Origin: Branchiostoma floridae
Taxonomy: Eukaryota; Chordata; Leptocardii; Amphioxiformes; Branchiostomatidae
NCBI RefSeq assembly: GCF_000003815.2
Contig: NC_049982.1
Location: 10,976,175-11,040,174, forward strand
Direction of reading: 5' to 3'
Length of the DNA: 64,000 bases
How positions within the stretch are numbered: the first letter of the stretch is position 1; each line of letters starts with the position of its first letter. The notes beneath the pieces were generated by a model. That model searched no databases. It saw only the letters and a list, made by a program, of their open reading frames with translations, and was not told the DNA's origin. Position numbers and translations under genes: made by a program. Shown here piece after piece: positions 2,093-64,000 of the stretch.

Positions 2093-2341
2093 TCTATCCT
2101 TTTGACCAGTTCGAGAAGATACCTTTTCATGCCATGAGAGGAGTGAGTGAAGCTCTAAGCGGAAGGACCATAGAGAGCTGTCTAAGGGCCTGTCTGGAGG
2201 GCACACCTTCGGTGCCACTGGGATCGTGTACCTCGGTGGATCACGTCTATGGCAGTGGTGACTGTCATCTCATGGTGGAAAACAAATTCAGTCATCCTGA
2301 GCTATACGTGGCGTATACACCCATGAATTACTATCATAGAC
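2093..2341 (+). CDS. Unit 1 exon: PAN/apple-like module
   Basis: The 249-nt exon is phase 1 at both ends, between ttcgtttacag and gtaagt. It encodes about 83 residues with the PAN/apple pattern: CLRACLEGT, then GSCTSVD, then GDCHL, ending in NYYHR. It matches the unit 5 module at 57295-57545. PAN domains usually bind proteins or sugars; the partner here is unknown. Confidence 0.75.
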
Positions 2342-5300
2342 GTAAGTTGGCTGATTTGTATGTTACAAAATAACATGCTGAACAGTCTAAATTGTTCATC
2401 TAAAAATTCCTTTCAAATGCTGTGTGTAGTGAAGAGAGTTCCTGTAATGATGTCAGCGTGTGTGTCCACAATCTTTTCATGCGTTTAGTGATTAATCTTT
2501 CATGCCAGCATTCAAAAGTGGCTTTTAAAGAGTGCAACCGAGCGTTTCGATCAATCATAGACTCTGCTGCTCCTCATAGACTCTCATGTGCCTGGAAGGA
2601 ACTCGACACGTCCCCAGGGATATTCTATCACAAAAAGCACCCCTTCAGATGCTTTGTATACAGACTTGTATCTTATTAGGATGCCAATTTCATTCTATAT
2701 TCATACTCTGCATATGTACTATATTTGATACTTGTTTTAGTAATTACGATGATAAGTTTGTTTCTTCTTTTTTTTTGCCACACATTGTACCGTGTACGAT
2801 CGTTGCGCAATAAGGTTCTTCTTCTTCTATATACTGTAGAAGTAGTGGCTGACATTGCGTGCTATGCTTTACCATTGTTTCCTTTTCTTTGAAACGTCCT
2901 GTTTGCAGTTTTTGACGAATGTACTGCAGAGACGGACATATGCCCTCACGAGTGTGTAGACCTCCCCGTCGGCTATGACTGCGCATGCCCAACTGGTTTC
3001 CAGTGGGACTGGACTGCGGTCAGCTGTGTTGGTACGTCATGTAGCCTGGTGTGGATTGGTGTTAAAGGTGTGGGGGTAGGGTGGATTTATTGTAGTGTAA
3101 AATGCCATTGTAACTATACTACATATATCTTCATATCAGTTAGTTAGCTCCCTAATGTCCACATTGTATCGTACCTGTCGCAACTTAGACTCTAAGTCAA
3201 ATTTACAACATACACACGCACACACACACACACACACGCACACGCACACGCACACGCACACACATACACACGCACACACATGTACACACACACACACACA
3301 CATACACACACACGCTTCAATCCCTAACACNNNNNNNNNNNNNNNNNNNNNNNNNNNNNNNNNNNNNNNNNNNNNNNNNNNNNNNNNNNNNNNNNNNNNN
3401 NNNNNNNNNNNNNNNNNNNNNNNNNNNNNNNNNNNNNNNNNNNNNNNNNNNNNNNNNNNNNNNNNNNNNNNNNNNNNNNNNNNNNNNNNNNNNNNNNNNN
3501 NNNNNNNNNNNNNNNNNNNNNNNNNNNNNNNNNNNNNNNNNNNNNNNNNNNNNNNNNNNNNNNNNNNNNNNNNNNNNNNNNNNNNNNNNNNNNNNNNNNN
3601 NNNNNNNNNNNNNNNNNNNNNNNNNNNNNNNNNNNNNNNNNNNNNNNNNNNNNNNNNNNNNNNNNNNNNNNNNNNNNNNNNNNNNNNNNNNNNNNNNNNN
3701 NNNNNNNNNNNNNNNNNNNNNNNNNNNNNNNNNNNNNNNNNNNNNNNNNNNNNNNNNNNNNNNNNNNNNNNNNNNNNNNNNNNNNNNNNNNNNNNNNNNN
3801 NNNNNNNNNNNNNNNNNNNNNNNNNNNNNNNNNNNNNNNNNNNNNNNNNNNNNNNNNNNNNNNNNNNNNNNNNNNNNNNNNNNNNNNNNNNNNNNNNNNN
3901 NNNNNNNNNNNNNNNNNNNNNNNNNNNNNNNNNNNNNNNNNNNNNNNNNNNNNNNNNNNNNNNNNNNNNNNNNNNNNNNNNNNNNNNNNNNNNNNNNNNN
4001 NNNNNNNNNNNNNNNNNNNNNNNNNNNNNNNNNNNNNNNNNNNNNNNNNNNNNNNNNNNNNNNNNNNNNNNNNNNNNNNNNNNNNNNNNNNNNNNNNNNN
4101 NNNNNNNNNNNNNNNNNNNNNNNNNNNNNNNNNNNNNNNNNNNNNNNNNNNNNNNNNNNNNNNNNNNNNNNNNNNNNNNNNNNNNNNNNNNNNNNNNNNN
4201 NNNNNNNNNNNNNNNNNNNNNNNNNNNNNNNATAGGTAAGGCCACAGCAAGTAACATTTTTATGACATCCGCCACAGACTGTAAAAATAATGAGATTTGC
4301 CCAATCAAATCTACCCATTTTGGTATTTTCTCATCATGTTGACCACCACCGAAAGGCATTATTGTTTTTTCCTGAAAATGTGGAATTTGAAAATTAACGA
4401 ACGCGCTGATCTGTCATCCATAAAGTTTATTTGCTATGGCCTAAGATTTATGGATCTTTTTCATTACTTTTGTCAAAAATGTATTTGTTTCTTACTGCAA
4501 AAAGCCTACAGGTGACTAAAGAACTTAAACAAGAACTACTTTTGACTATACAAAAAATGTACTACCACATAGATCTCGTAAAGTAAGAACATTTTGACAT
4601 TTTGAATAGGCCTGAAGGGGCCTTTTGAACGATGCCCATAACGTCCCCATAACATAGCATCATTTCCGTGTCCAAATATCGTATCTAAAAACGTATCTTA
4701 AAATAGCGTAAATACGTCTACGATACGTAATTTTCGATCAGAACGATATCGTTTTAATTATACGATATCACCTCGGAACAAAAATATTGCTATACTCCAT
4801 TATACTCAGCAAAATGCACTTCGCTAAGGTATCGTTATAACACGTACCTTAAACTATTGTCATCGTATAAAAAATGTAACTTGAATAAAGGAAACAAAAT
4901 GTAAATGCATCTTCGATAGTACTATCAAGCCATGGTTGTCTCTTGATTGTCCATATATGACTAATCGTTACTTACTGCATTTTTTTCCTGACAGGTCCTA
5001 AGACGTGGCGTGATGACAGGCGTTGCGGGCAGGGCTACCCTGCTGAAGACGGTAACCCTGCTGGATGCGACCATGGCGGGATACACCCATGCTGCTCCCC
5101 GGCAAACTGGTGCGGCAACACTGCACACCACTGTGACTGTCCGGACTGTGTCGACTACAGAAACACTGGTACATTACTGGAACATACAAAAGATCGCTTG
5201 GTTATCAGAAAAGATTAAGACATTGAGTGTACATGCCAGAACGATACCGTATAAAAAAATCGTCTGAATTGCGATATCGTATACCTGATGGCGATACTAG

Positions 5301-8300
5301 TACTTTAAGGTACACCTTACAACAGTACCCTAGAAAAGTGAAATTTGCTGCATAAAATGGAGTATAGCGATATTTTTGTTCCGAGACGATATCGAATACG
5401 TAAAATGATATCGTTTTAACCGGAAAATACGTCCGTATATCGTGGACGTATTTACGCTATGTTACGGTACGTTTTTAGATACGATTTTTTGACACGGAAA
5501 TGATGCCATATGTTGATATAATATGAGATATTGCAGTATACGATATCGTAACGTTCCTGTTGAAACATCGTACACGTATTTTCGCTTGTATGGTAAAACC
5601 ACATTAAAACGAACGGATTCTTCGTCATGATGAGGACGATGATATAACATTACCTGTGTGTACATGTACGCAATGGAAGTTTGGGGGTTTTAATTCCATG
5701 TAAATATTTCATCAGTTAATGGACAAATCGATATTTCAAATGCAGTCTCCAGCAAGTTATTCTATCACTTACTCCCAGGGATCCTACCACCAGGAGCCTA
5801 CCGTGTGTTCTGGATCTACTGGCGGCCAAGTGGAACCATCGCGGTCAGGCTACAGGGGGAGACCATGCCCTTCCTACAGTGGACGGACCCCGATCCTCTG
5901 CCGGTCCGTTACATCGGGTATACCATGGACCAGCAGTTCCCTGCGCAGTGGAGGTTCTGTCGAGGTAAAACTGGAATACTGGGATAAAATGTAAATTCTG
6001 TGACGGTATGTGGATATTTTGTAAAGTAAATGCGAGACTTCGCGTCTATAGAGTATAGCTACATTGTATTGGGTGCATATGAAGAGTGATGTGACATTTG
6101 AGTGCCTGTAGCCACATGTACACATACCGGTACGTTGATTTTTTTTGTCCATTTGCCCATGTTCAGCAATTACTATGTATTTTCGATAACAAATCAAAGC
6201 GTTAATGATCATGGATTTAACATGTAGCTTGATGCACGATGTTTGACGGAGTTGCCCATTTAAACCTACAGGAGTTTCCCAGAGGTGTCGGTGTACAAGG
6301 GGTTGACACTTATTACCATGCTAAAGCATGTTGACAGCTTATGACGGAAAACATATTGTATAGCATAACTTAAAAGCCTCTTGATTTTGGGCCCTCTAGT
6401 ATGTGACCTTGGTACTGCAACAGGACTTCCATTTCTGTCTCTTTTTACCTGGTGGCAGATAGTTTGTTTCAGCTATATTTAATGAAGTCTTACTAGTACA
6501 TACTGATGATAGTGTATTGGAACACACAGAAGTAATATAGGAGTGAGCATCGGAAATCAAATGGGATATCACTTTTATGCAGCACATCACGTATAATTTT
6601 CTATGTGTATGTCGATTTTTCTCTCACTATGAAGTGAATGGAGACTGGAGTGAGTGGGGTAGTTGGGACGCCTGTGACGCGAAGTGTGGGTTCGGAACCA
6701 TAAAGCGGACCCGGACATGTGACAACCCCCCTCCGGTAGAGTATCTGGGCGGGACCTGCATAGGGCTGCCCGGGATGTCCCTGCTTTGCTACATATCAGG
6801 CACATGCCCAGGTATTATCAGTTTTACTGTATATGTATATACAATAGTATTAATCAAGTGCATAGAACTGATTGGCCTACTTGATGCAGTCTTATAAATA
6901 CACATAAGAAAAGCACTACTAGTAAGTCTTATTCGTTCATTGTTGTCCATTTTCCATTTGCTAAATAAATATTCTTAATAGCAAGATAACTGCGTACAAA
7001 GCTAGTCCTCAATAGATCGATCTGTTCTAAATATAGAAGGAAATTCAAATTTGATGGTGAGAAACTTGTGCTTTTTGTCGGCTCATTTGGCAAATCTATT
7101 TTCCTATGTGATTTTGTTTCATTATATCCACATTACATAATGGAATCTGGATAGTTATAAGTGGTTGTAACAAATATTTCTTGTATGTATTTTCACTTAA
7201 TGAAAAACAGAGAGTGATTCTGGAGTGCCGGTATGTATAACCATTTCAAACCGGCTTTGTTTGATATAACTAGTGTCATGCGTGTTTTAGTTCATGTAAT
7301 CATTAAAACTCTGAAACACCAAATTTCAACCACTGAGAGGATGTCACTATATGAAACATGCCGTGTATCCACGTGATGTACAATTGATGAGTACATGTAT
7401 GTTCGAGAGAAACATGTACAATAACAAGAACATCGATGAAGGTTAGACCTCCAGCCAATAAGATACGCCAAATAGTAATTACTCAAGCAACTGGATATGA
7501 TTTTGGAAACGGTCTAATTGCTATTTGGCGTGATGACAAGAACATATCATAATGTATGCTAAATCTTAAGGCTCATTAATGTCACCGGAACACTCTGCCT
7601 TTGACCTGCAAAGAACAAAACCAACAGAAAGTGTATTGCACATCCATATAGTTCACACCAAAAAGCCATTCTTGAAGCAAAGTGACTGTCAGATTTTACA
7701 GCGTATATTGCTAGGAGTCAAGATTTTCACCCATTTTCACACTCTGTCGAACCTAGGGGTTGTTCGATCCCGGTGAGAGCAGCACCAACATGACCTGGCC
7801 TGTCTGGAAAAACAACTGGGAAAATGGAAAGTTTCTGCCTTTGGACTATGACTCTTCTGCCTCACCGAATGAGGAAGGTTGGTATTTCAGTTCATATATT
7901 GTACGATACTTAGCGTATTATTTGAATATCAGAATTGTCAGAATAAGATACCCTTCCGATTATGTTCCTTCATGTCCCACCCCAGGATGATTTGTCGTCA
8001 AATGATTTTCAGTCATTAATAAATGATGTAGTTCATGTCATTCTCCATGCCTTGAGCGATTAATTAATAGATTTGAGCTTTGAATTAAAAACTACTAATG
8101 GATACCTTCCCGTTCTATAGCTTTATATCAGTAGCACATTAGAACGTCATAAAGATTGCGACAAATTAGACAAAACGACTGTAGATATGAAAATTAATCT
8201 GGGCAGGCCAATACCGATCTGTCATTTTGCTAGGTTTTGACGTGGATCTGTACACGTACCAAGCCTTTACTTTCTTGTTTCAGGTGGGATGGACATCGCT

Positions 8301-11041
8301 TCGACTGTCTACGTTCTCAACATCAGCTCACACTCAGAGGAGCACGCTGTAATTGTTGTTTTTCTATCTACAATTTATCAACTGGAACTACTCAGAGTCA
8401 CAAATGACTTATTCCTAAACGATCTCCTGTACATGTCAATTGATAATCATACTAGACGCATCTTTCAAGAGCCAAACTATTTAATTGACAAGGGTTTGAA
8501 ATGTTACATCTTATCAAATGATGTGCATACATTGTTACAGAAAATTGCCATCAGGATACAGTACGTCCTCTGTTGGATCGATCCCCGTCTGTTCGGCCTG
8601 GCACCAGACTGGGTTCCTGTCCCGCCGTCCCTACTCTGGTCCCCGCCGCTCGCCTTCGGACAATCGGTCCGCAGGGCCATCACTAACGAGGACGATGACA
8701 ACAAGATGTGGATGAATCCTGTTGGACTGGTTATTCTCCAGATAACGTGCGTTTTGTTTAAATCATAGATTCATTTCTGCAACTATGTTGTGTGTAGAGA
8801 GAGTCCATTGTGAAGGCATCTAATGGTAGTTAATAGTTATAGATGAGGTTTTTCTGATGTATGTTTACTATGCAGATAAATCAGCGAGAAAACTTTTAGA
8901 GTTAAAATCACAACTTTGATCTACATTCCAGCCGTCTGCTACAAGTGAGCTGCGTGGCCAGATTAGCGAGGTATCCACTCGACACTCAGGTCTGCTCCGT
9001 GGCTCTGCTTGGATGTGAGTCTTAATTGATCTTAATTGTGCAATTCTCACAGTGGATTTCATTGAAAACCGCTTGATCAATTCAACATATTCATTCGGTA
9101 GTTGTGTTGCGTTGCTTTAATACTAGATGTTAGTGCACAATCAAAAGGAAGAAATATCTGAATCTGTGTGTTTTGATTGCCTTCCAAGATAACGGCATAC
9201 GGTACCGACTGCAGCCGTCTACGTTACCCAAACGGGCCCCCATCAAGAGCGACGCTACAGGGGTGGTGTCACAGTTCACGTTCATCGGAGTGGAGGAACG
9301 GGCGGTGTTCAAGTCATTCATCACCAACGGCACAGGTCAGTTTCCTTTCCTTTATCTACGTATATACCGTGCATGTCCATAGACTACTTGTGGGTCGTTT
9401 GGGCTCCATTTAGTGCACAAATGTACAGCTTTGCCGCCATTTCCTAATTATTCGCTTGCCTCCACTTAGGTACAGCCTCCTGCATCTACCTCAAGCAGGA
9501 CTGTGATTACCGTCCCGAAAAGTGCATGACGTCACTGTCAGACGAGTGCAGAGGGACTGGTTGTGGCCACTGCTTCCTCGTCATCGGGGACTGCCAACAT
9601 CAACTGGAGACCTGTCAGCAGTACATTGATGGTAACTATTAGTTTGCACCATGCCACACTGTTAGGAGGGCAAACCGCTCATATGGCTACTGAGACTAAC
9701 TACTTGAATGCTTGTTGTTTCAGACACCAGCGCGTTCACGTCCCTGGAAGTCCATGTCCGGCTCCGAAGAGTCCTCTGGCGGTACATCCTCACCGCCTAC
9801 CTCCCGTCCACCGTCGTCGTTACGGCGTCTTACCTGCAAACGTGGCTGTCGCCCTCACAAGCCGCCATTTCTCCCAGAGTAGTTCTCGGCGTGATGTCGG
9901 TACTGACAATGATCAAACAAATGGGGAAGACTGTGCGCATGCCCTGGGTAAGCCTCATCCAACCTTTGACCCTGAGCAATTCCTATCATTGATCGTGGTC
10001 ATTGTGACTTTGCATTACTGTCTACATATGCATGAGTGTTATTTTTAGGCAGATGTAACCAGCTTTAGATAAGCTTATAGTGGCGTAGGTCCTTTCTGTA
10101 GCACTCTGTATTGCTTTCATTTAGTATTTTCTTATTGAACTAACTATTGAAGTAACATATCGTTACCTGTAGCTATGGGACACGGCATGATGTTGCAAAG
10201 CATTGCCAAACTGAATAGTATTTCTTTGACAGGTTGATGAACCGAGAGCAGTTGACATCTGGATGCTGGGGTGTCTATCGTTCGTGATTGTGGCACTTCT
10301 GGAGACGGCTGTAACACACTACCTCTCATTGACCACTCAAGAGAAGGTTTGAGTTTACATAGGCATGAGAGATTTTTCCATTTCTCCAAAAACTTCAATG
10401 TACATCAGAATAGTTTTGTTTCCTGAATTTCCCAGTAAGATAGAACCATTGAATCATGACCTGCAGTACAGAGTACAGAGCAAACATAACCAAACTTGTA
10501 GCTATTAAAATATACGCCCTGAATCATATTCCCTCAGGAGAAGAAGGAAATCCGTGCAGAGAAGCGGGAGAGAGAACGGAACCCGCCTGTCCAAATACCC
10601 CGACCTGGACTGAGGGACTCATCGGTGAGGGCTCACAAGCCATCCGAACACCAGAAGACCGCGATCCCCGAGGAGCCGATATCCATCCCTCGAGCACGAC
10701 TGAGCAAGCCCTCCAGGCTTAGGTGGCACCAGCTGACTGATAAGGAATGGGTGGTGGTGATCAAACAAAAATCAAAGGTTAATGAACTCAAGCAGTCAGA
10801 CGACAATGTTGTTAAGCCGCGAGACCATGACAGCAGCCCAACTGTCTCGTACACTCCTCCCACGATGATGTCCCGTACCATGTACACAAACGTGCCGGCT
10901 TTTGACGCTAGAGCCGTCGGGCCGAGTGCAGCCGAACGGGCTGACAGCATGGCGGGAAAAACAGATCGACATGCCAGGGTCATACTGCCGGTCCTTTTCC
11001 TTATATTTAGCATTGGATATTGGAGCTTTTATCAGTATTAA
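2093..11041 (+). CDS. Unit 1: chimeric Cys-loop ligand-gated ion channel (PAN-EGF-[gap]-hevein-FAMeT-TSP1-pLGIC), 5' partial
   Basis: Fifteen exons are recognisable: 2093-2341, 2909-3031, 4995-5168, 5779-5964, 6635-6811, 7211-7230, 7757-7877, 8284-8348, 8541-8746, 8932-9014, 9189-9335, 9470-9631, 9724-9947, 10233-10346 and 10538-11041 (stop TAA). All junctions are GT/AG and the phases join. The product should be a membrane receptor with extracellular adhesive modules in front of a glycine/GABA-receptor-like channel. The channel part has WIDPRL, a 13-residue Cys-loop (CVARLARYPLDTQVC), an 8-Cys insert before M1, and four membrane segments. No signal-peptide exon was found in 1-2092, so the start is missing or outside the window. 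The first FAMeT exon is not visible and may lie in the N gap 3331-4231. Family membership is firm; ligand and ion selectivity are inferred. A possible AATAAA is at 11929-11934. Confidence 0.88.
2909..3031 (+). CDS. Unit 1 exon: EGF-like module
   Basis: A 123-nt phase 1-1 exon encoding a six-cysteine EGF repeat that begins DEC and includes CPHECVD, YDCACPTGF and a final SCV. Unit 5 has an equal-length homologue at 56827-56949. Donor gtacgt. Confidence 0.85.
3211..3314. repeat. (CA)n microsatellite with CACG variants
   Basis: About 100 bp of CA repeats interrupted by CACGCA and TACA units, directly before the assembly gap. It probably caused the gap. Confidence 0.95.
3331..4231. other. Assembly gap (901 N) in unit 1
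   Basis: Unknown bases sit between the EGF and hevein-like exons. By comparison with units 2, 4 and 5, the missing first half of the FAMeT domain is expected about here. Confidence 0.99.
4232..4470. repeat. Dispersed repeat family, copy 1
   Basis: Shares aaggc-acagcaagta, gcgctgat-tgtcatccataaa and a 'tgacatcc..c.gcagact' segment with 19725-20020, and is more weakly related to 23648-24020. No coding content. Confidence 0.6.
4655..4872 (+). repeat. Left arm of imperfect inverted repeat around the hevein-like exon
   Basis: Contains tagcatcatttccgtg, aaaacgtatctt, tagcgtaaatacgtc and ggaacaaaaatattgctata. The same order appears in reverse complement at 5271-5510. Confidence 0.85.
4995..5168 (+). 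CDS. Unit 1 exon: hevein-like (chitin-binding type 1-like) eight-cysteine module
   Basis: A 174-nt phase 1-1 exon encoding TWRDDRRCGQGYP, then a CCSPANWCGNT core and HCDCPDCVDYR. The CG...C...CCSxxxWCG...C order and eight cysteines resemble hevein-type chitin-binding domains. I recall similar WR-x-D-x-RCG modules in predicted lancelet proteins. No other unit in the window has it. Chitin or GlcNAc binding is inferred. Inverted repeats lie on both sides (4655-4872 and 5271-5510). Confidence 0.75.
5271..5510 (-). repeat. Right arm of imperfect inverted repeat around the hevein-like exon
   Basis: Reverse-complement partner of 4655-4872. It shares gacgtatttacgctat, tatagcgatatttttgttcc and cacggaaatgatgc. 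The arms are diverged and contain small indels. Confidence 0.85.
5779..5964 (+). CDS. Unit 1 exon: FAMeT domain, second half
   Basis: A 186-nt phase 1-1 exon with AYRVFWIYW, GTIAVRLQG and RYIGYTMDQQ, ending WRFCRG. It is the C-terminal half of a farnesoic-acid-O-methyltransferase-type (Methyltransf_FA) module. Despite the name, this domain is generally a non-enzymatic extracellular module. It is nearly identical at the base level to 15327-15512 of unit 2. Confidence 0.82.
6635..6811 (+). CDS. Unit 1 exon: thrombospondin type 1 repeat
   Basis: A 177-nt phase 1-1 exon with WSEWGSW, CGFGTIKRTRTCDNP, GGTC and a final TCP, giving six cysteines. WxxW sites like this are usual C-mannosylation targets. 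It lies between the FAMeT domain and the channel, as in every complete unit. Confidence 0.92.
7211..7230 (+). CDS. Unit 1 exon: 20-nt linker micro-exon
   Basis: A 20-nt exon between aaaaacag and gtatgt adds ESDSGVP. It changes the phase from 1 to 0, joining the shuffled modules to the channel exons. All five complete units have a 20-nt exon at this position. Confidence 0.8.
7757..7877 (+). CDS. Unit 1 exon: channel LBD, N-terminal segment
   Basis: A 121-nt exon (phase 0 in, 1 out) encoding GLFDPGESS, WPVWKNNW and FLPLDYDSS. It corresponds to the N-terminal helix and the LL..Y..R.P region that opens Cys-loop receptor ligand-binding domains. Confidence 0.85.
8284..8348 (+). CDS. Unit 1 exon: channel LBD beta1-beta2
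   Basis: A 65-nt exon encoding MDIASTVYVLNIS, like the V.V...IYI..I segment of glycine and GABA-A receptors. Its donor gtaatt is weak, and the following intron is stop-free and in frame. Confidence 0.85.
8349..8540 (+). other. Stop-free 192-nt intron in unit 1
   Basis: The phase 0 intron between the beta1-beta2 and WIDPRL exons has a length divisible by three and no in-frame stop. If retained it adds 64 residues. The homologous introns elsewhere are interrupted or of other lengths. Confidence 0.8.
8541..8746 (+). CDS. Unit 1 exon: channel LBD with WIDPRL and loop A
   Basis: A 206-nt exon. It carries WIDPRL, the WxDxRL signature of Cys-loop receptors, and LLWSPPLAFG where most receptors have WxPD. 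It ends two bases into a codon and is completed by the Cys-loop exon. Confidence 0.92.
8932..9014 (+). CDS. Unit 1 exon: Cys-loop
   Basis: An 83-nt exon encoding CVARLARYPLDTQVC. Thirteen residues separate the cysteines, with the usual aromatic-Pro-x-Asp (YPLD) inside. This is the defining motif of the pentameric ligand-gated channel family. Confidence 0.95.
9189..9335 (+). CDS. Unit 1 exon: channel LBD beta8-beta9
   Basis: A 147-nt phase 1-1 exon encoding NGIRYRLQPS, PIKSDATGV and QFTFIGVEE. It follows the Cys-loop in the order seen in glycine receptors (loop F region). Confidence 0.8.
9470..9631 (+). CDS. Unit 1 exon: eight-cysteine insertion replacing loop C
   Basis: A 162-nt phase 1-1 exon with eight cysteines spaced 6-6-7-4-2-6-6 (CDYRPEKC, CMTSLSDEC, CGHC, CQHQLETC). 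It falls between loop F and the pre-M1 strand, where ordinary receptors have the short capping loop C. I do not recognise a named domain. The spacing is kept in units 2, 4 and 5. Confidence 0.85.
9724..9947 (+). CDS. Unit 1 exon: beta10, M1 and M2 (pore)
   Basis: A 224-nt exon. SLEVHVRLRR leads into M1 (YILTAYLPSTVVV), then M2 (SPRVVLGVMSVLTMI). Arg at 0', no Glu at -1' and LG..SVLTM resemble anion-selective glycine/GABA-A receptors. Confidence 0.93.
10233..10346 (+). CDS. Unit 1 exon: M3
   Basis: A 114-nt phase 0-0 exon encoding AVDIWMLGCLSFVIVALLE. It closely resembles the YVKAIDIWM...F.F.ALLE segment of glycine and GABA-A receptors. Confidence 0.93.
10538..11041 (+). CDS. Unit 1 last exon: M3-M4 loop and M4
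   Basis: A 504-nt exon to TAA. The cytoplasmic loop has a basic start, QIPRPGLRD, then SIPRARL and RWHQLTDKEWVVV, and a FDARAVGPSAAERAD segment. M4 is VILPVLFLIFSIGYW. The IPR motifs recur in every unit, and I know of no named domain for them. Confidence 0.9.
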   Translation, partial: EKKEIRAEKRERERNPPVQIPRPGLRDSSVRAHKPSEHQKTAIPEEPISIPRARLSKPSRLRWHQLTDKEWVVVIKQKSKVNELKQSDDNVVKPRDHDSSPTVSYTPPTMMSRTMYTNVPAFDARAVGPSAAERADSMAGKTDRHARVILPVLFLIFSIGYWSFYQY

Positions 11042-12399: not shown

Positions 12400-12481
12400 A
12401 TGGTATTTCTCTCAACAATGATTCTGCATATCCTTGCGGTATCGACAGTCCTGCTGTATACCAGACGTGTTGTTGACGCAG
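12400..12481 (+). CDS. Unit 2 exon 1: signal peptide
   Basis: An 82-nt exon from ATG at 12400 encoding a hydrophobic leader (MVFLSTMILHILAVSTVLL) and ending in phase 1 at GACGCAG|gtaagt. Length and phase match the first exons of units 3, 4 and 5, which supports this start. Confidence 0.85.
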
Positions 12482-15400
12482 GTAAGTCGCTCAACCCAAA
12501 TGGATCACCCAATCAATAATCCGAGGACACCAAAGGCGGCTATGGTGATCTCTCTTTAGGATGTTGCATGTACTACTAAAACTGTCCGGTCGCAACGAGT
12601 TATGCAAATAGGAGTACAGGTCTATTTCAAGCTAAGATACATAATGATACAAGGTCATATAGTCATAATTCATAACGGTAAGGTGTAATCTACCTCAGGG
12701 TGATTTTCTGGGTGGATACTTGTTCACATGTCAATACTAGCGTTAGCGAACAAATAGCTATTTTGTTGTTGGTATATATGTCTCCACCAAGAGTATCAAT
12801 GTTATGTATTTTTGAACAGAGTTTGCGATTATATTTCATATAAGCAGGCTGCTTTGATATGTTATTTTCCTGCTTTGAGATATGCTGATGAATGGAGAAG
12901 CTTAACCTTAATGTTAAGTTTTGTTCCAACACGTTTTGTTACATTTGCAACCCAGCAATATCATCAACTTATGCATACGATAATCTATTTAATGAAAGAA
13001 ACATTGTTTAGGTACACTATGGTGCTTTGGCGTAAACTGATGACATGTCTCATGGCAATAGCCTACACTACCCCAGTAACATCCACAGCCTGCGAGGGAG
13101 GAACATTGGAGCTGTCCTGTGACTTGGGATGGACGCTTCAGATCGACGCCGCCAACTACGGCCGGTTGACCCTTACCCACGCCAGTTGTGGCAGTTGGGC
13201 AGCTGACAACTGTCGATCAGCCAACAGCATGTCCATTGTGACGAGCGCCTGTCAGGGGTTACCGCGGTGCGCCGTGGGAGCAAGTTACCGGGACTTCCTC
13301 GGCGACCCCTGTCCTGGTATCGGGAAGTACCTGGAGGTTACATACCGCTGTCAAGGTTGTGTTGTAGCCTCATTAAGTCTGCAAACGATTCCCTTTGTTA
13401 CATATGTAATTCCCATTATTTACAATTGAGGCATTATCATCATAATGCTTACTCGTTGAGGAAAGAAATAGGGTCCTAATTTGCAGAGCATTGAGATATA
13501 CGTATCATTTCATACAAATTGAAGTCGCTATTGTGTACTACTGGTGTTCCCGATTCTTACATGCCACATGCGTTGAATTTTCAAAATAGAACATGAAGGA
13601 ATGATAAAAAGATCTTATTTACTATGCAAATGTATGACATAATCTGACCGCCAAAAATACAGGTTCCGTTAGAAATGTGAGTTGATGTTGGTTAAGTATG
13701 AAAATGTAAAATAGGAGTTTACTGACTGCTTTTCATTTACTTAGGCAACCCTTGCAACGGTGCCCCAAACCACCCCGAAAATTACGCAAGTACCTGTGGG
13801 CTACAACCCACCTACCAACCCGGCCACACCTGCACCTTCGCCTGCCCGGACGGATACACCCAGTCTGGGGGTGCTGCGGACAAAATGTGCCAGAACGGCC
13901 AATGGGTGGGGGAAGATTTAGTGTGTTCCGGTACGTGTACCTCATTTTACTGGAGTGTCAACTTGTAAACTATTGTGTCTGCTAGATATAATTTTCGGCA
14001 TCACTACTCTGATGTTCCAATGTTCGTTTATGCCCGATTAACGACGTAGTAAAATGAACTGAATCGATAGTATCTTGCTGTGCCAGAGTGAAACGTGAAA
14101 CATGTTACTTAGTCTTACAGTGAGTGATAAAAGCTTTCTAGGTAACAACCGGTGAGGTGAGGTGAGGTGAGGTAACAACTATGTATCAATGTGCCTGATG
14201 GTAAAGTATTACTATTACAAGCTGCTTAATAGGTGATAATCAATATGCCTGATGGAGAAAGTATTGTGGATGCTATTATTGAATCACCTGAATATGTTAT
14301 CATGAAAGGAAAACATTCTTGATAACACGATTCTTTCTCCTAGATATTGACGAGTGTGGAATGAACAATGGAGGCTGTACTGATGTATGTACCAACTCTC
14401 CCGGTTCTTACGTCTGTTCCTGCTACGGAGAAGTGCCCATGGACAACGGCGCCTGCCTAGGTACGCATAAAAGGATAAAATGCGATGACACAACAAAATC
14501 TCAGTGCAACTTTGAACCATAGCAGTCATCTTCTTTTAGGGTCCCTTCCTCTCTTTTCCTTCGACAGGATTCAAGGGAACGACAGTACACTTTGAGAGTT
14601 CCTCCTATATACAGTCGACTATGTTCGACAGAATTAATGATTGAATGGGCCACTGTATTCACTTACATTGATAAAACAGTTCTGACATCGCCTGACATTT
14701 TTTCTACCAAAAACCATAGTCATAGATTTGAAAGAAAAATTGCTCGGTTTGTCTATGCTTTTATCTAAATGGCAATAAAAATCCTATTCGTCATGTTGTC
14801 TCCTTACATACATGTGTACTACCCATCCAGCCTGCCTTGACAGAGACACGGACGGCACCTATGAATACCAGTGGGACCTGCAGCCTGTCACCTTTCCGTA
14901 CATAGTCATGGCAGCACGAACGGACGGTCCCGTTCATCTGGCCCTGTCTACTGAAGTCAACAATGTGGAACAGGCGTATGAGATCATCATCCGGGGACAG
15001 AGCAGTGATGGGAGTGTCATCCGCCGCAGCGTGCAGGGTCCGGACATGGTGTCTGCCGACACGAGGGGTAAGAATGCTAAAATGACTGAAGACCTTGACA
15101 ATGTGTCATTCAAGTATCATAAATTGCCGGTAAAACAGGGCAAAACGAAGTAACAAAACCGGAAGTTCACACACACACGCACACACACACACACACACAT
15201 AAACACACCGCACACACACACACAGTGTTAAGTAAGCTTCTTAGACTTAGCAGACGAATATTGCAGTGATCAAGTATACTCCCACTCTATTACAGATATT
15301 GTTTTCCATCCCTTACTCGATCCCAGGAATCCTATCTCCGGGAGCCTACCGCGCGTTCTGGATCTACTGGTGGCCAAGTGGAACCATCGCGGTCAGGCTG

Positions 15401-18400
15401 CAGGGGGAGACCCTGCCCTTCCTACAGTGGACGGACCCCGATCCTCTGCCGGTCCGTTACATCGGGTATACCATGGACCAGCAGTTCCCTGCGCAGTGGA
15501 GGTTCTGTCGAGGTAAACATGATGTTTTTTGGTACATAAAAAAACTGCAATGCCTAGAAATGCAGTAGAATAGTCTGCTACAAAGACAAATGCAGACGGT
15601 ACCCTACCCAAAACGTAGGGTGAACCAGCCCTGGTGCCTGACTGTGATCATCACACCATCATTCATCACACCATCATTCATGACACCATCATTCATCACA
15701 CCATCATCACACCATCATCACACCATCGGGTAGAATGTGTAAACATTTAAAAGCATTCATGTGTAAATAATGTTGGATATGTTGGGTTTATCCACTTCCA
15801 AGTGAATGGAGACTGGAGTGAGTGGGGTAGTTGGGGCTCCTGTGACGCGAAGTGTGGGTTCGGAACCATAAAGCGGACCCGAACATGTGACAACCCCCCT
15901 CCGGTAGAGTATCTAGGCGGGACTTGCATCGGAACGCCAGGCTTGTCCAACCTTTGCTACATATCAGGGATATGCCCAGGTACGGTATCATTTGTTTCTT
16001 CATGTGGGTATGGCGTACTTAAAAGAGGGTCTGCATGGGGGGTCCTGACAACGCTTTACGCTAAATTCAGGACGGTCGACTACGTTTCACGTTAAATTCC
16101 GAAGGCTGGCAACGCTTTACGCTAAATTCAGAAAGGCCGGCAACAGTTTACGCTAAATTCTGAAAGACTGGCAACACTCGGCAAGGGCGGGGGTATGCTC
16201 CGCCGGGAAGATTTTGAAATTTTGACTCTCTGAAACACCATTTCCTGCATTTTGAGGGGAAATTTTCGCTGGTAGACAAAGCTAAGTTAAATGGCATATC
16301 TAATTAAAGATTCCCAGGGGTTCAGTGTAAGCCACCCAACAGATTTTTTACCATGCCGAGCGCCGAAGGGGCGAGGCGTCGCAAGGGACGTTGTGAAATC
16401 CTGACACCCTGAACCGCGATTTCTTATGTTTTTCTGGCTATCATATAAAGCTGAGTTAAATGACATTTCTATCAGCAAAAAGGTGTTTGAGTTTGACACG
16501 TCACATCCCCCAACATCATTTTCAGAATTTCGAGCGCCGAAGGCGCGAGGCGGCGCAAGGGAGGACCATGAAAATTTTGAAATCTTGACCCTCTAAAATG
16601 ATATTTCCTGCATTTTATTTTTGATGGGCAAATTTTGCTGGCAGACTAACCTAATTTATAACTTCAATGACATTGCAAAAAGGTTTTTGAGGGCGAGGCC
16701 ACCGATACAATTTCTACCATGTCGATGACCGAATAGTCGCAAGGGAGGTCCGGCAAAATTTTGAAATCTTTATCCTTTGAAACGCAATTTCCTTTGTTTT
16801 GAGGGCTAAAATTTACTGGTAGACTACGCTTCGACTTACGAAATTTGGGAGGCCAGACTACGATTTACGGGTAATTTTTAGGCTAGATTACGTTTTACGT
16901 AAAATTTTTGGGCTAGATTACGTCTTACGTGAAATGCACTGGCTACGCTTTACGGTAAATTTTTCATCCTCACTACGAATTACGTGAAATAAAATAGCTT
17001 CCCTACGAATTACGGGAAATTAAAAGGCCTGCCTACGCCTTACGGAAAAGAGCATGCAGACCCTCTTAAAAACATCTACAAATCGAGGTGCTATCAATTT
17101 ATTACCTTGATACAGATTTATTGGTAAAGTGAATTCAGAGGTAAAATAATCAGATTTTTTTTGTTATTGAACAGAGAGTGACACTTCGATGCCGGTAAGT
17201 ATGATCATTTTTATCTAATATTTTTGTTTTGTTTGGGAAATACAGACAGTGGCTAATAGGTAAAACGGTCAGAGAAGACCCACACAAAAATTGCATCCTC
17301 GCATGATTCTATAGAGGGAAAATCCAAATGATGACAATACGGAATTACGTATAATGTGCAGACTTCTGACTGAGATTGAAGGTTTTCTAATAATGAAGAT
17401 GACTGGCATCATCCAAATATGTATAACGAAAGAATCAAGAATGCTGGGTTTTCTCTTCAATTACGTACCTTTCGCTATATACACAACGCATCTTACCCAC
17501 ACCTCGTTATCACACCTAGGGCTTGTTCGATCCCGGTGAGAGCAGCACCAACATGACCTGGCCTGTCTGGAAAAACAACTGGGAAAATGGAAAGTTTCTG
17601 CCTTTGGACTATGACTCTTCTAAAGCACCGAGCGAGACGGGTTCGTATTTACAAAATTATCCCCATGTGTGTGTATCTATATATAAACAGAACGTCTGCA
17701 GCTATATTTCTGGATAACATTTCATCATATTCTACTTCACTATTTTACCTATTTTGTGAATATAGATATCATTTACTCGTCATAATATTTATGCTTACTT
17801 ACCATTCCTCATTAATTGCAGGCGAAATGGACATCGCCTCGACTGTCTACGTTCTCAACATCAGCTCACTTTCAGAAGAACATGCTGTAAATTTTTCCTT
17901 ACCCTACGTCGACATTAATGTCACATGGTTCAAGCCACTAACATTCAGTTTTATAATATCTAAATGGATCATTGGACATAATTTGCCCTCTATTGTCTTA
18001 GAATTGAACAATTTGTATTCAAAGAGCGTTCTCTAAAATTTATTTTTTAAACGTTGAAACATTGTGTATCTACTTCTTTGGCGTTAGTTTATTTTTATTG
18101 TTTCAGCACATTTTCATCAGAGTCCAGTACGTCCTCTGTTGGATCGATCCCCGTCTGTTCGGCCTGGCACCAGGCTGGGTTCCTGTCCCGCCGTCCCTGC
18201 TCTGGTCCCCGCCGCTCGCCTTCGGACAATCGGTCCGCCGGGCCATCACTAAAGAGGACGATGACAACAAGATGTGGATGAATAGTGATGGACTGATTAT
18301 TCTTCAGATAACGTAGGTTCTGTCTGACAGACCCACATATTTATACAAAATTGTGTTAGATTGAGAGTCTATTTGACGATGGGAGAGACGAAAGGAAAAA

Positions 18401-34662: not shown

Positions 34663-34696
34663 AGCACTAAATGCGGGCCTCACGTATACTACCAGA

Positions 34697-36405: not shown

Positions 36406-36661
36406 TGTCACGGTGGCATGGTAGTGAGTCAAGTCAAGGATCAGGACAGAGGCATGATGTTTGCGGATAGAAGACTTTATTCGGAGCTCTGGTAGACACG
36501 TCTTTCTCTGTCGGCTTCTCTCGGTTGAATCCCCCCGTACCCTCATACGTGTCACTTCTCCCGACCCCTCTCCATCTGGTCCCACTTAGTCCGGTGACAT
36601 TCCCCACACCAGGGGTTAACAGTGACTTGACACGCTGTCACTTCGTGACACCCTCGTGACA
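36406..36661 (-). repeat. LTR 2 of the TRIM-like array
   Basis: 256 bp, almost identical to LTR 3, from which it is separated by only three bases. Confidence 0.85.
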
Positions 36662-36664
36662 CCG

Positions 36665-36920
36665 TGTCACGGTGGCATGGTAGTGAGTCAAGTCAAGGAT
36701 CAGGACAGAGGCATGATGTTTGCGGATAGAAGACTTTATTCGGAGCTCTGGTAGACACGTCTTTCTCTGTCGGCTTCTCTCGGTTGAATCCCCCCGTACC
36801 CTCATACGTGTCACTTCTCCCGACCCCTCTCCATCTGGTCCCACTTAGTCCGGTGACATTCCCCACACCAGGGGTTAACAGTGACTTGACACGCTGTCAC
36901 TTCGTGACACCCTCGTGACA
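36665..36920 (-). repeat. LTR 3 of the TRIM-like array
   Basis: 256 bp, almost identical to LTR 2. Confidence 0.85.
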
Positions 36921-38297: not shown

Positions 38298-38538
38298 TGT
38301 CACGGTGGCATGGTAGTGAGTCAAGTCAAGGATCAGGACAGAGGCATGATGTTGCGGATATGATAGACTTTATTCGGAGCTCTGGTAGACACGTCTTTCT
38401 CTGTCGGCTTCTCTCGCTGGAATCCCCTACCCTCATACGTGTCCCTTCCCAAACCCCTGTACATCTGCTCTCAATTATCGGGTGACATTTCCCACACCAG
38501 GGGTGATCACAGAGTGATCACGATGTCACCTCGTGACA
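38298..38538 (-). repeat. LTR 4 of the TRIM-like array
   Basis: 241 bp, almost identical to LTR 1. It ends 266 bp before the unit 4 start codon. Confidence 0.85.
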
Positions 38539-38804: not shown

Positions 38805-38871
38805 ATGATACCAAAGTTTGTGGCGGCTTTGACACTTCTGTTCTTACCTCACTGTCCATATATTCAAGCAG
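38805..38871 (+). CDS. Unit 4 exon 1: signal peptide
   Basis: A 67-nt exon from ATG at 38805 encoding MIPKFVAALTLLFLPHCPY, ending in phase 1 at CAAGCAG|gtaagg. The unit 5 first exon is also exactly 67 nt. Confidence 0.85.
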
Positions 38872-44800: not shown

Positions 44801-47800
44801 GAAGGTATCTCTCTGTACATGTCTCTCTACCTCCCTCCGTCCGTCTGCCTGTATACCTGTCACTCTCTTTGCTCTCTCTTTCTCCTTTTCTCTAAGAGAA
44901 ACAGAATTCTATCCATCTCTTCTTCCTCTACTTTTATCTCCCTTTCTCCGTTGAGAAGTGGAGGCAGAAGAAAGCATGTACAATTTGGATAGTATTACAT
45001 GTTATATATCACGTATCACCAACAAGAGTTTTTTTGTACGAGTATCATGCCTCCTACGTATGGCCAAATGACATGACTACAAAGGATAGTACAAGACAAA
45101 CACATAACTCATAAGATATTTATGCTCTCCACTTGAGCAAGCTAAAACTCTGAAAACGCTCCACTCCCTTATGAACATATTTCAGCTAATGGACAATGGG
45201 GTGCGTGGGGAGGTTGGACCGCCTGCTCGGTACCGTGCGGTTTCGGCCTACAAACGCGCCGGCGTGTGTGCGACAATCCTATCCCAGTACCTCCTCTGGG
45301 TAAGGCATGCGAGGGGCAGACAGAGGGTTCTACTCTGTGTTATGTATCGGCAGTCTGCTCAGGTACGTGAGAATTTATTGAACATTATTTGTTATACATG
45401 CAAACCGTTATATTAGGAATGTTCTTGGTATTGTCAAATATGTTTTTATTTAATACAGCCCACTGCGGTATCATTTACTGTTGTATACATTGTGCATTGT
45501 ATAAAAATCGTGCTAATTACAAAACTTCTCCTGACATCTAAAATTTAGTTGTTCAGTTTGTCTGAAAATATGTTCATTACGATGATAACTAATCCTTTGT
45601 ATGTCTGCTTTCAAATATAGCTGACGATTTAGGATCTGAGGTAAACCCTGAAAGGATTACCCTGGGTAGTCTTCATGAAATCAGACCCATCTTGTCAAGA
45701 TCATAGCCAACACTAGTGTTCTCAATCACTGTTCATTTTTAGATGAATGCCCCTCACACTTTTGTCCTCTTCTCGCTATAAGCCTTCGGACATGAACTAG
45801 CAACATTAACTTGGACCTGACTTATGTCGTCAGTGCGCATGTCAATCTTCCTCTGCTACCGAACCACCATGGCCACTCAGAAGCTTCTGTTCGACTACAT
45901 GACAACTTTTATCACATGCTTTATAATTTCGAAAGAGAAAAATGCACATCATAATTGCTGTATCGTCAATCAAGGTCATCTTCTTCACCGGTAGCTGAAA
46001 ATTGCTCATACGAATACACTGTTTATGTGACATGTACTTCTGTCAAAGAAACACAACACTTTATCTTACAAAAATGTAATGTATTTTCTTTGAATGTAAA
46101 ATCTTTTCAAGAGTTTATTTGATCCCGGGGAGACCAATGTGAGCTGGCCCGACTGGCAGGCCAAGTGGAAGTCTGGCAAGTTTGTACCTCCCGATTATGA
46201 CTCGACTCAAGCGCCGAAACAGATAGGTCTGTACTATTGCATATTCACTGTTATATGTTATCATGTTTGTTAAGCTTGGCTTTATATATTACTAAGCTAT
46301 GCCATGGTATCAAACAAATCTTTACTCGTTAAGATTTACACGAGTACGAGAATTTGACATACCATAAAAAGATCTACGTACTTCCGCGTTCGCATCTACA
46401 GTCATAAACAACAAGATCGTGCATTGTGCGTGTATTGTTATAAGAGTCATTCGTACAATTAGATATCCATTTTAACTGGAATGGGTATACTAAAACTTGT
46501 ATCTGTCCTTCCATGTAGTTTGATACAAAACCTTGATTATTATCAGTATGCTAAGTTCCGCTAACAGCAGTTGGTATAACATAACTTCTCGACATTTTTT
46601 CACGCCTAGGAGGGATGGACGTTGCTTCTACTGTCTACATCCTTCACATCGGTACTCTGTCAGAAAAGCACGCGGTAAGAATCTGCTTCATACATGTTAA
46701 CAGATGTGATGATCCACTGTTATTATCTCTGTTTATGCAAAAATAAGCTGAAAGGTAACAATGATATATATATACGACTTCAGATTACTGTTCGATTAAC
46801 CAAATGAATTCAAAAATTACCAGCCGTTTCCCAGATTATTGATTAAAATTTTTGTCTCAGAACATTTCCGTCAGGCTCCAGTACACCTTGACCTGGGGCG
46901 AAAGCCGCCTTTACGGCATCGCGCCGTCGTGGGTTCCCGTGCCGCCGTCCTTGGTCTGGTCCCCGCCGCTCGCCTTCGGACAGTCCGTCCGCCGGGCCAC
47001 CGCGGAGGAAGAGGCGGACACCTCGATGTGGCTGGACCCACGCGGACTTGTCGTCTACAAGATGACGTATTGTTTATATACGATTACATTAAAGCGTGCA
47101 TGGTATGATTGAAGTAAAAAAGTGAATAGGAAAAGCTCTTAAAGCATTCTTGCACAAGCTACAGCAATCGTTGTGAAATCTCAAGAAGAATTAGCATGGT
47201 TTGCTAAACGATTACGGACATGTATGTACATTTGACATGCACGTGGCATGCACGTGGTAAATGTTCTATATTGTTCAAACATTTACTGCTTCAGAGGTAG
47301 AAGGCACACAGTGAAGCACATTTTACATCGGGTAATCTAAACGCTACTAATAGATAGTTGTACATGTAGAAGCTTTGTGACCAATAATCTCTCTTTTCTC
47401 CACACTCACGGACAGACGTTTGCTAACGCTCAGCTGTGTGGCGAAACTGGAGAGATATCCACTAGACACACAAGAATGCCAGGTGGTGCTACATGCATGT
47501 AAGTTCATCACTGATTTGCTCACATTCTCTGTCAAATTTCTGAATCAGCAGATAATCCATTGAACTGATAATCGCTTTCAATACAATCTATTCTTTTCCA
47601 CACTGAACTTTTAAATCATGTGAAGCTACGTTATAGCCTAGAAAACTTTCTATTTCCAGACAACGGAATACGGCTCCGACTGCAGCCGTCTGAGACTGGC
47701 CAGAATGCGCCTATCAAGGTTGACGCCAGGGGGATCGTGTCACAGTTTGTGCTGGTGGGGGCTGAGCAGAAGGCAGGCTTCAAATCTTTCCGTGAGAATG

Positions 47801-47886: not shown

Positions 47887-47938
<52 letters not shown>

Positions 47939-54355: not shown

Positions 54356-54412
<57 letters not shown>

Positions 54413-62209: not shown

Positions 62210-64000
62210 CTATGGGTAAAAATATAATCTGTGTCAGTAACATGTTCTTATTGGTGTTAGTTTGTTTGTTTTGTAGAACGTGACTTGCGCATGCTCTAAA
62301 ATGTTGTGTTCTACCAGTTAACAATGGCATTTAGCAATATCACGTTTGACAAAAATTTAGTTGCAAAATGAAAATAAATAAACAGCGATACTTACTTTTT
62401 CTTCGAGTTGAGACTGGACGAAGTGTACAATAATTGTCTCAAGAAACATGAGAATGACAACAGTCAGGCATCCGGCAAACCAGATGTCGATTGCTCTTAC
62501 TTCGTTTACCTGGGAAATAAGGTGATATAGACGTTAGTATAGGTAAGTTCATGTCTTTAATATAGTTCATGTCTTTAATAGTAAAACAAGAAAGACGACA
62601 ATTTAGATTTCCCTGACCATTCTATTTTTTAAAAGATAATTGATGATGGTTGTAATTGTGTAAATGTTTCCTGTCAGTTCATTAGCGCAACAGTATAATT
62701 TGGCTGGCATATGACTGGTTTCCTTAAGACATAACTCAATATATCCCTACACGCCACGTAGCCATTGATACTAGTAGGTGTGTCAAACCATCAGATCTTG
62801 ACATGACAAACATTAAGTTTGTCATGTCAAGATCTGATGGTTTGACAGTTTAGACAACTTATAATGTGATTTATATATATGTCTTCATTGAATGTTCACC
62901 TATGACGATAATTCCCATTCCTAAAGATTTTACTTTCGTACAAAACGTAAAAGTACCAACACGCTAATTAAATTATGTCTATTGCAATATGTCTATAGCT
63001 TATATCGTTTATACCCAGGACACAGCGCCAACGCCACTCCCATGCACGATGATAGTTAGGAACCCCGTGATTCCCAGCGAGGCCCGCCCTGCGAGGACAG
63101 AGGTGTGTAGGGGGAGCCAGAGCTGCAGGTACGAGGCAGTCACCACAAATGCCGAGGGGAGGAACAGTCTGAAGGCATAGCTCGACAAGCGGCGGCTCAT
63201 CTGAAGGCGAACTTCCACTGTGGTGTACCCGTTTGTACCTAGAAGAGGAAGTAACGATCATGTTCCTAGAGGGTAGAGCATGGTCATATCCCAAGTTATT
63301 TATTTTGTCGTGATAGAGGCATTTTTGCCTTGACCTGTCGTCCTTGTCTGAAATTTATTACAGTAATATATGACCCAAGACATCAAAAATGTCGCAGGGA
63401 TTTATTAAAAAAAGGTGATGGAAGGTTATAATATAGTGAAACGTTTAATACACAATGTAGCTCGCGATCGTGGCTTAGAATGTTTGACGAAAATTAGGTA
63501 TATTTGAAGGTATGATGAAGGTATGTTTATTACGTTAATGGCTATGATGAATTGAATTCCAATAAAGCTATGGTCTCCACAGACAAAGACATTCTTTCGG
63601 AAATTGAAAATAATGACAGTTACACCCATCCGTTCTATAATACCAAAATAAACACATATTCACTGTTCTATCTAGCCAATGAATTATGCATTGCAGGCTT
63701 TGGCTGCGTATCTAATATGGCCTTGTCGCATACCACTATGATTAGACTCGATCAATTCCTGTATGTATACCATGCTTCTCACTTCTGTTTCAGATGAAAA
63801 CAAGACGAGCTTCAGAATACTGATTATACTTAAAGCCATGCAACAACGTCCAACTGTTCGTAAAGGGAATTATTTTACTCCTGCATGTGAAAATGATTGT
63901 CAAGTTGATGTACACATTCGACATTCGACATTGGATGGCATACATACTCACTTGTCTGGCCCTGTAGACACCCGTTCGGTTCAATTTTACACTGTCCAAC
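61526..64000 (-). CDS. Unit 6: divergent Cys-loop channel, 3' part only
   Basis: Transcript order: 63952-64000 (partial), 63015-63238, 62396-62509 and 61526-62209 (stop TAG). Exon lengths 224 and 114 match the other units exactly. The protein is more diverged: M2 reads GRASLGITGFLTIIV, and the final exon is 684 nt, with a third IPRPKL motif and a longer stretch before M4. It extends past the window end, so its N-terminal modules are unknown. The intron between M1-M2 and M3 carries a perfect 31-bp hairpin. Confidence 0.9.
62396..62509 (-). CDS. Unit 6 exon: M3
   Basis: A 114-nt phase 0-0 exon with VRAIDIWFAGCLTVVILMFLE. Confidence 0.93.
62781..62847. repeat. Perfect 31-bp hairpin in unit 6 intron
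   Basis: Arms 62781-62811 and 62817-62847 are exact reverse complements around the loop attaa. The left arm starts tgtcaaaccatcagatcttg. Confidence 0.93.
63015..63238 (-). CDS. Unit 6 exon: beta10, M1 and M2
   Basis: A 224-nt exon with TVEVRLQMSRR, M1 (FRLFLPSAFVVTASYL) and M2 (GRASLGITGFLTIIVHG). The aligned core LGIT..LT recalls glycine receptors more closely than the other units do. Confidence 0.92.
63952..64000 (-). CDS. Unit 6 exon (partial): end of eight-cysteine insertion
   Basis: Reads GQCKIEPNGCLQGQT with a six-residue interval between the cysteines, ending in phase 1 at a gtgagt donor. It matches the last two cysteines of the loop-C insert in the other units. The exon runs off the window. 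Confidence 0.65.

Follow-up and report, generated by a model that had tools for sequence, protein, structure and literature searches.

Lancelet Cys-loop receptor genes that appear to place varying extracellular modules ahead of the channel: a tandem family in Branchiostoma floridae

Introduction

Can an ion channel of the Cys-loop type carry the lectin and adhesion domains of a recognition receptor on its outer end, and could recognition then be coupled to ion flow? The question is raised by a 64,000-nucleotide stretch of the genome of the lancelet Branchiostoma floridae (contig NC_049982.1, forward strand, positions 10,976,175 to 11,040,174), hereafter the window – C4:10976175-11040174 in a notation where C-numbers stand for contigs – in which an earlier reading of the letters (the sequence-only reading) had proposed a tandem family of channel genes with changing N-terminal modules. 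Our analysis, for which a genome of 513 Mb in 431 contigs was searched, finds this family to be real. In the window it comprises five units with channel exons (U1 to U4 on the forward strand, U5 on the reverse), a sixth (U6) represented by its final three exons, and a relic of a single exon. By its sequence, the family belongs to the Cys-loop receptors, and by similarity to their anion type. The most likely reading of the architecture is a recognition-coupled channel, whose outer modules would bind a target and pass that binding on to an anion-type pore; we regard it as an even call, with a tethering role of the modules ranking second. The layout suggests that surface recognition, and not a classical neurotransmitter, gates these channels or sets their position.

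Gene units and their layout

Exons were placed by tblastn of exon peptides and splice-site modelling. The nine channel exons, L1 to L9, recur in the same order between units, and L2, L3, L4, L5, L7 and L8 are constant in length in five of five; the identical channel gene structure claimed before holds to this extent, but U6 contributes only L7-L9 within the window. The spliced models of U1-U4 and U6 contain no internal stop, and in U5 the reading frame stays open once the first EGF exon is reached. The module sets read earlier ahead of the channel – PAN, EGF and hevein-like in U1, SUEL lectin, CCP and EGF in U2, kringle in U4, and PAN with two EGF in U5 – all match. The features are listed below, in coordinates of the window.

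2093-11041, forward strand: U1 (tblastn, splice model, Pfam)
Forward strand, U1 modules: PAN 2093-2341, EGF-like 2909-3031, hevein-like 4995-5168, second half of FAMeT 5779-5964, TSP1 6635-6811
Forward strand, U1 microexon and first channel exons: microexon 7211-7230, L1 7757-7877, L2 8284-8348, L3 8541-8746, L4 8932-9014, L5 9189-9335
Forward strand, U1 later channel exons: L6 9470-9631, L7 9724-9947, L8 10233-10346, L9 10538-11041
13077-21491, forward strand: U2 (tblastn, splice model, Pfam)
Forward strand, U2 modules: SUEL lectin 13077-13355, CCP 13745-13930, EGF-like 14344-14460, FAMeT 14831-15067 and 15327-15512, TSP1 15803-15979
Forward strand, U2 microexon and L1-L5: microexon 17175-17194, L1 17520-17640, L2 17822-17886, L3 18107-18312, L4 18526-18608, L5 18986-19132
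Forward strand, U2 L6-L9: L6 19262-19423, L7 20128-20351, L8 20703-20816, L9 20988-21491
24223-34074, forward strand: U3 (tblastn, splice model)
Forward strand, U3 TSP1, microexon and L1-L5: TSP1 24223-24393, microexon 24584-24603, L1 24912-25023, L2 26653-26717, L3 30335-30540, L4 30916-30998, L5 31230-31376
Forward strand, U3 L6-L9: L6 partly inside the gap 31439-32263 (weak match, E 0.09), L7 32603-32826, L8 33216-33329, L9 33529-34074
43167-49689, forward strand: U4 (tblastn, splice model, Pfam)
Forward strand, U4 modules: kringle 43167-43409, FAMeT 43963-44196 and 44619-44804, TSP1 45186-45362
Forward strand, U4 microexon and L1-L5: microexon 45621-45640, L1 46112-46226, L2 46610-46674, L3 46861-47066, L4 47416-47498, L5 47660-47806
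Forward strand, U4 L6-L9: L6 47981-48133, L7 48354-48577, L8 48831-48944, L9 49186-49689
57545-50334, reverse strand: U5 (tblastn, splice model, Pfam)
Reverse strand, U5 modules: PAN 57545-57295, EGF 56949-56827, EGF 56616-56488, FAMeT 56199-56008 and 55556-55365, TSP1 55054-54878
Reverse strand, U5 microexon and L1-L5: microexon 54550-54531, L1 54293-54179, L2 53991-53927, L3 53607-53402, L4 53073-52991, L5 52766-52620
Reverse strand, U5 L6-L9: L6 52208-52050, L7 51877-51654, L8 51093-50980, L9 50846-50334
63238-61526, reverse strand: 3' part of U6 (tblastn, splice model, Pfam), with L7 63238-63015, L8 62509-62396, L9 62209-61526
59996-59391, reverse strand: relic, a lone L9-like exon, open and stopping short of M4

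An N gap at 3331-4231 in U1 may conceal an exon. No module was detected ahead of TSP1 in U3, where the assembly is gapped at 23030-23647 and 31439-32263. The PAN, two EGF, TSP1 and L2-L6 exons of U6 are found past the right-hand edge of the window, on C4 up to about 11044.6 kb, and neither its microexon nor its L1 was located. The relic is 84% identical to the U6 L9 across 504 bp, and tblastn of exon peptides matched no further channel exon beside it. Genome-wide searches with PF02932 and PF02931, which scored the best 150 of 486 and of 492 candidates, gave no place within the window among the matches listed; this reflects the limits of those searches, because searches with single-exon proteins did recover the window exons.

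The channel core

Compared with the PDB by phmmer, the L1-L9 product of U2 has glycine receptor alpha-2 as its top match (1.5e-27); taken by block, M1-M3 match strongly, the ligand-binding domain (LBD) weakly (0.004) and M4 non-significantly on its own. The Cys-loop is intact, as C-x13-C with Y/FPxD (CVA(R/K/E)LxRYPLDTQxC in U1-U5, CPILLTKYPFDTQTC in U6). The LBD and transmembrane domain that together define the Cys-loop superfamily stand in one chain in all six models, joined by splice modelling, and TSP_1, Neur_chan_LBD and Neur_chan_memb exceed the Pfam cut-off in every one of them. Like glycine and GABA-A receptors, the family combines an LBD and a transmembrane region with a C-x13-C loop containing YPLD and with RAIDIWM in M3. 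Unlike them, it has outer modules, an eight-cysteine exon for loop C and IPRPxL-like cytoplasmic repeats, lacks the loop-D arginine and has a non-canonical pre-M2 motif.

Loop C is the usual agonist clasp of such receptors. At its position, between β9 and β10, U1, U2, U4 and U5 carry a cysteine-rich phase 1-1 exon of 51-54 residues; an alignment of 11 members, which includes four from the window, shows six cysteines without exception and a further two in 10 of 11. By eye, the corresponding exons of U6 and of a C14 member have eight cysteines each, and that of U3 lies partly within an assembly gap. The eight-cysteine exon found no meaningful match in the PDB (best E 6.4). The residue three before the loop-D tryptophan, which in glycine receptors is an agonist-binding arginine, is V or T in U1-U5. 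A glycine receptor proper was considered as a candidate and rejected on two grounds: the cysteine exon in place of loop C and the non-canonical pre-M2 motif.

In the pre-M2 region, all 11 aligned rows share an arginine at 0', and neither -1' nor -2' is acidic in any of them (an aspartate lies a few residues further upstream in three rows, all from outside the window), and the M1-M2 exon has an invariant leucine at 9' (11 of 11). Since an acidic filter is present in all known cation-selective members, according to the portion of PMC9897478 available to us, the lack of an acidic -1' or -2' residue argues against the standard cation filter. The cytoplasmic loop is marked by motifs resembling IPR(P/A)x(L/F). 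A six-frame scan of the window gives 17 matches, every one in an L9 exon or in the relic, against none across 17 control loci (119 kb). Of ten other loci scanned, six have matches in or near their L9; three loci (L018, L019 and L027) have none, and three further matches lie elsewhere.

Modules ahead of the channel

The outer modules differ in how clearly Pfam recognises them. SUEL_Lectin in U2 (4.1e-18) and Kringle in U4 (2.6e-21) are strong, as is Methyltransf_FA, the FAMeT domain, in U2 (1.3e-25), U4 (2.6e-28), U5 (1.1e-12) and, for its second half only, U1 (5.5e-12). EGF families exceed the cut-off in U5 and U6 and stay under it in U1 and U2; PAN_1 is marginally over it in U1 and U5, and the U6 PAN, with no Pfam match, was detected by tblastn only. 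The CCP of U2 (Sushi, 19.2 versus 20.7 bits) and the hevein-like domain of U1 (Chitin_bind_1, 13.9 versus 27.8 bits) fall below their cut-offs. The earlier claim that FAMeT and TSP1 precede the LBD stands for TSP1, present in six of six models, but FAMeT is halved in U1 and was not found in U3 or U6. A search for the first FAMeT exon in U1, U3 and U6 with three queries yielded only a weak, stop-containing fragment in U1 at about 5649-5732 (E 0.013), and FAMeT found no meaningful match in the PDB.

One transcript or two genes

Do modules and channel belong to one gene? Read off their flanking splice sites, the module exons are compatible with phase 1-1, which was then imposed in the splice model, and L1 starts in phase 0. 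Before the channel, a 20-nt microexon found through between-unit similarity leads from phase 1 to phase 0 in five of five units; when 20-nt candidates are ranked by splice score, it comes first in every one of the five but U1, where it is second. Throughout U1-U5, the L1 frame has a stop a few codons upstream with no ATG between, and because this closes the frame, L1 appears to be an internal exon.

TSP1 is also linked to the channel genome-wide: of the 80 TSP1 places listed, 22 are on the same strand as a channel and no more than 12 kb upstream of it, serving 9 of 30 channel places, where uniform placement would give 0.03 pairs. Two arrays account for 15 of the 22, and the window itself for 5 of the 9 channel places; the 80 TSP1 places come from the best 150 of 543 candidates, and 30 of 31 channel places were used, a second C17 fragment having been dropped. 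On C9 no 20-nt microexon was found, and a right-phase 29-nt candidate ranked first of 24. A scan further predicted four signal-peptide exons with phase-1 donors and no candidate for U3 or U6, against a background of 16 such donor ends per 134 kb (both strands, candidates included), or 7 under a stricter rule.

About 0.8 kb left of the window: candidate signal-peptide exon of U1 (prediction only)
12418-12481, forward strand: candidate signal-peptide exon of U2 (prediction only)
38805-38871, forward strand: candidate signal-peptide exon of U4 (prediction only)
58225-58159, reverse strand: candidate signal-peptide exon of U5 (prediction only)

From phases, frames and linkage we strongly infer that modules, TSP1, microexon and channel are on one transcript.

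Selection and the exchange of modules

Over L1-L5, L7 and L8, the ratio of nonsynonymous to synonymous divergence (dN/dS) comes to 0.28 for the U1-U2 pair (316 codons) and to 0.20 for U3-U4 (313 codons). It is below 1 in all 15 computable comparisons of 19 (the other four are saturated), with maxima of 0.67 (U1-U5, L6, 52 codons) and 0.57 (U3-U4, TSP1, 56 codons). Such low values point to a conserved protein rather than decay.

The stretch from FAMeT through L9 marks U1 and U2 as close paralogues, with 97% protein identity in the M1-M2 exons and a synonymous divergence (dS) of about 0.13 over L1-L5, L7 and L8, and their first three modules are of different kinds. Because channel exons this similar stand behind first modules so unlike in kind, an exchange of modules is likely, in keeping with the exchangeable modules of the sequence-only reading. 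Exon by exon, from FAMeT to L9, DNA identity between U1 and U2 is 83-97% (70% for the microexon); their BLAST matches end near exon edges, except through the short L5-L6 intron, and L6 is much more diverged than the rest (dS 0.51 versus 0.13). Gene conversion limited to exons is possible between the two units.

Relatives elsewhere in the genome have other sets as neighbours, counted by position as modules upstream of the same channel type on the same strand. Upstream of the channel we find C-type lectin and CCP at C9:13.27M, C-type lectin (with CCP and two EGF by tblastn) at C4:6.05M, three CCP at C4:11.07M and two fibrinogen-like domains at C2:11.11M. A C-type lectin also occurs at C2:14.28M, barely over the cut-off, and on C8, by eye only. 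Arrays of TSP1 lie upstream of members at C14:9429047-9432909 (eight places) and C137:153187-157822 (seven). The C6:6.1M relative has a canonical pore, the cysteine exon (E 0.003) and, by eye, no module. Five of the ten inner branches are open and two are starred in a tree of 13 relatives, whose poor resolution makes the order of module gain unreadable. Within the family locus at C8:23825000-23834999 (L028), partial L3, L5 and L7 exon pieces are repeated in tandem.

An inverted-repeat element around the hevein-like exon

By what route might a module arrive? The hevein-like exon of U1 lies within an element that has inverted arms of about 210 bp and dispersed copies.

4657-5506, forward strand: 850-bp terminal-inverted-repeat element enclosing the U1 hevein-like exon
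C10:15604944-15605751, C2:27976436-27977247 and C16:15116992-15117500: further exon-bearing copies

The arm sequence recurs at no fewer than 45 places in the genome. Comparing 41 of these (four short pieces omitted) with 96 of 150 listed hevein-like places (weaker ones omitted), we find arms near another copy of the exon within 140 bp at 12 of 41 and within 1 kb at 14 of 41, where 0.015 would be expected; copy counts are lower bounds, with the best 40 of 131 and 40 of 152 candidates scored. Among eight fetched copies, those on C10 and C2 align over essentially the entire element, three (two on C16, one on C6) match from the exon through the right arm with a shared end point, two match in the exon and near flank only, and the C14 copy has its arms in a different arrangement. 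In at least ten copies, U1 included, the right half of the element starts 5-20 bp past the exon match, with the exon at the same place. What the element carries is an entire phase 1-1 exon, coding for a secreted domain rich in cysteine.

These copies suggest that the hevein-like exon was captured by the inverted-repeat element and then probably carried into U1, the unit whose first FAMeT exon is gone but for the weak fragment just before the second. Further copies adjoin no listed exon, and just 11 of 96 hevein-like exons lie within 1 kb of a listed arm, so that the U1-type element would be one vehicle among others. An element-borne exon in U1 fits the link that PMC4284660, in the part available to us, draws between exon shuffling in lancelets, 1-1 exons and transposable elements.

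A proposed receptor and its alternatives

We propose that each gene would encode a single-chain receptor subunit with a predicted signal peptide, variable modules, mostly a FAMeT domain, and then TSP1. A short hinge encoded by the microexon would lead to a Cys-loop LBD with an eight-cysteine cassette at the loop C position, followed by four transmembrane helices like those of glycine receptors and a cytoplasmic loop in which IPRPxL-like motifs recur. Five such subunits would assemble into an anion-type channel at the cell surface, where the outer modules may bind glycans or proteins borne by cells, by microbes or by the matrix; TSP1, hinge and cassette would relay this binding to the pore, so that contact would set off a chloride-type signal. 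Modules would be gained and lost as phase 1-1 exons, with that of U1 probably delivered by a mobile inverted-repeat element. Ligand binding by the modules, ion conduction and biological role are here what we infer, and a role may lie in immunity or chemosensation.

Several observations weigh against a recognition-coupled channel. The canonical pre-M2 motif of anion channels is PAR; the family has SPR in U1 and U2, SAR in U3-U5 and AGR in U6, and PAR itself appears in just one of the 11 rows, that of the C6:6.1M relative. The M1-M2 linker is moreover two residues longer than in the one canonical member, and these two departures leave ion selectivity uncertain. U3 shows no module ahead of TSP1, FAMeT is halved in U1, and the PAN exon of U5 (57545-57295, reverse strand) is broken in frame, through real damage or an assembly error. 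No TSP1 is listed within 12 kb upstream at 21 of 30 channel places, and none was found at C2:11.11M, C2:11.13M, C2:14.27M, C8 or C6. The sequence-only reading had spoken of a diversifying receptor system; as a statement about selection this was dropped, every computable dN/dS being below 1. Finally, the receptor-channel family is known here from genomic sequence alone.

The modules might do no more than tether the channel to matrix, glycocalyx or cilia or set its position there, with a small ligand gating it at a remodelled LBD interface. The LBD and Cys-loop are still recognisable and conserved, and TSP1, EGF and kringle belong to the usual adhesion modules, which favours anchoring; the cysteine cassette that replaces loop C, and the V or T at the loop-D arginine position, make it rather unlikely. 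We think it improbable that the proteins are silent or non-conducting adhesion subunits, with the channel fold used as a pentameric support for multivalent recognition: the departure of the pore from canonical sequence and the variable 5' ends would suit them, but not the invariant 9' leucine or the low dN/dS of the channel exons. That module and channel exons form separate neighbouring genes gains something from those relatives without TSP1 between the two, and from evidence that is all genomic, but the exon phases, the microexon, the closed frame of L1 and the linkage of TSP1 make it very improbable. Hardly credible are decayed copies or assembly chimeras, for which assembly gaps, the relic and the break in the U5 PAN exon could be cited, against open models, dN/dS well under 1 and like layouts on other contigs.

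Other features of the locus

A direct duplication of 3.3 kb, 95% identical and holding 163-bp tandem repeats, has one copy (26738-30066) in the U3 L2-L3 intron and the other (39773-43129) stopping 37 bp before the U4 kringle exon. The stretch 34687-38538 is repeat-rich; at 36406-36922 it holds a 258-bp sequence copied perfectly in tandem.

Relation to known systems

Polycystin-1 and the sperm receptor for egg jelly bear lectin-type modules on a channel-related membrane protein. Their membrane part is unrelated to that of our family, and a Pfam search with E up to 1 found no PLAT, GPS or REJ domain in the six models.

That Cys-loop receptors start at the LBD, as the sequence-only reading assumed, is right for eukaryotes: the available part of PMC9897478, a 2022 paper, reports extra N-terminal domains in bacterial pentameric channels only, and in no eukaryotic homologue. 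It fails for several bacterial relatives, among them DeCLIC, whose N-terminal domains influence gating (PMC9897478). Like these, the family stacks extra domains on a pentameric ligand-gated channel type, but DeCLIC, classified as cation-selective, has two β-rich jelly-roll lobes (PMC9897478), whereas the family has animal extracellular domains that vary by gene and to which Pfam gives other names. The chemotactile receptors of octopus and squid likewise form a family of pentameric channels; they arose from neurotransmitter receptors, of the nicotinic kind, and now serve contact chemosensation. They are nonselective cation channels, and the accessible text of PMC11526382 mentions no extra recognition modules. 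The authors of PMC4795631 (in the part available) discarded terminal regions and remark that associations with further domains are known from genomes only. Among the titles and abstract openings listed from an open-access library, none describes the family; subscription papers and predicted-protein databases fall outside that search, so predicted entries may exist.

Significance

The family looks like a counter-example to the statement on eukaryotic channels in the portion of PMC9897478 available to us, and is a natural case in which to examine how a pentameric channel is gated by an added domain. The exon-bearing inverted-repeat element provides a concrete, testable vehicle for the exon shuffling described in lancelets (PMC4284660, as far as available). 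If the channel is indeed recognition-coupled, lectin-type recognition would be tied directly to ion flow. More tentatively still, and with doubts that outweigh our confidence, a eukaryotic branch of the Cys-loop receptors may have become an ionotropic repertoire for pattern recognition or contact chemosensation, its neurotransmitter site rebuilt around a disulfide cassette and its specificity swapped by mobile exons, some of them within inverted-repeat transposable elements that would insert a ready-to-splice extracellular domain.

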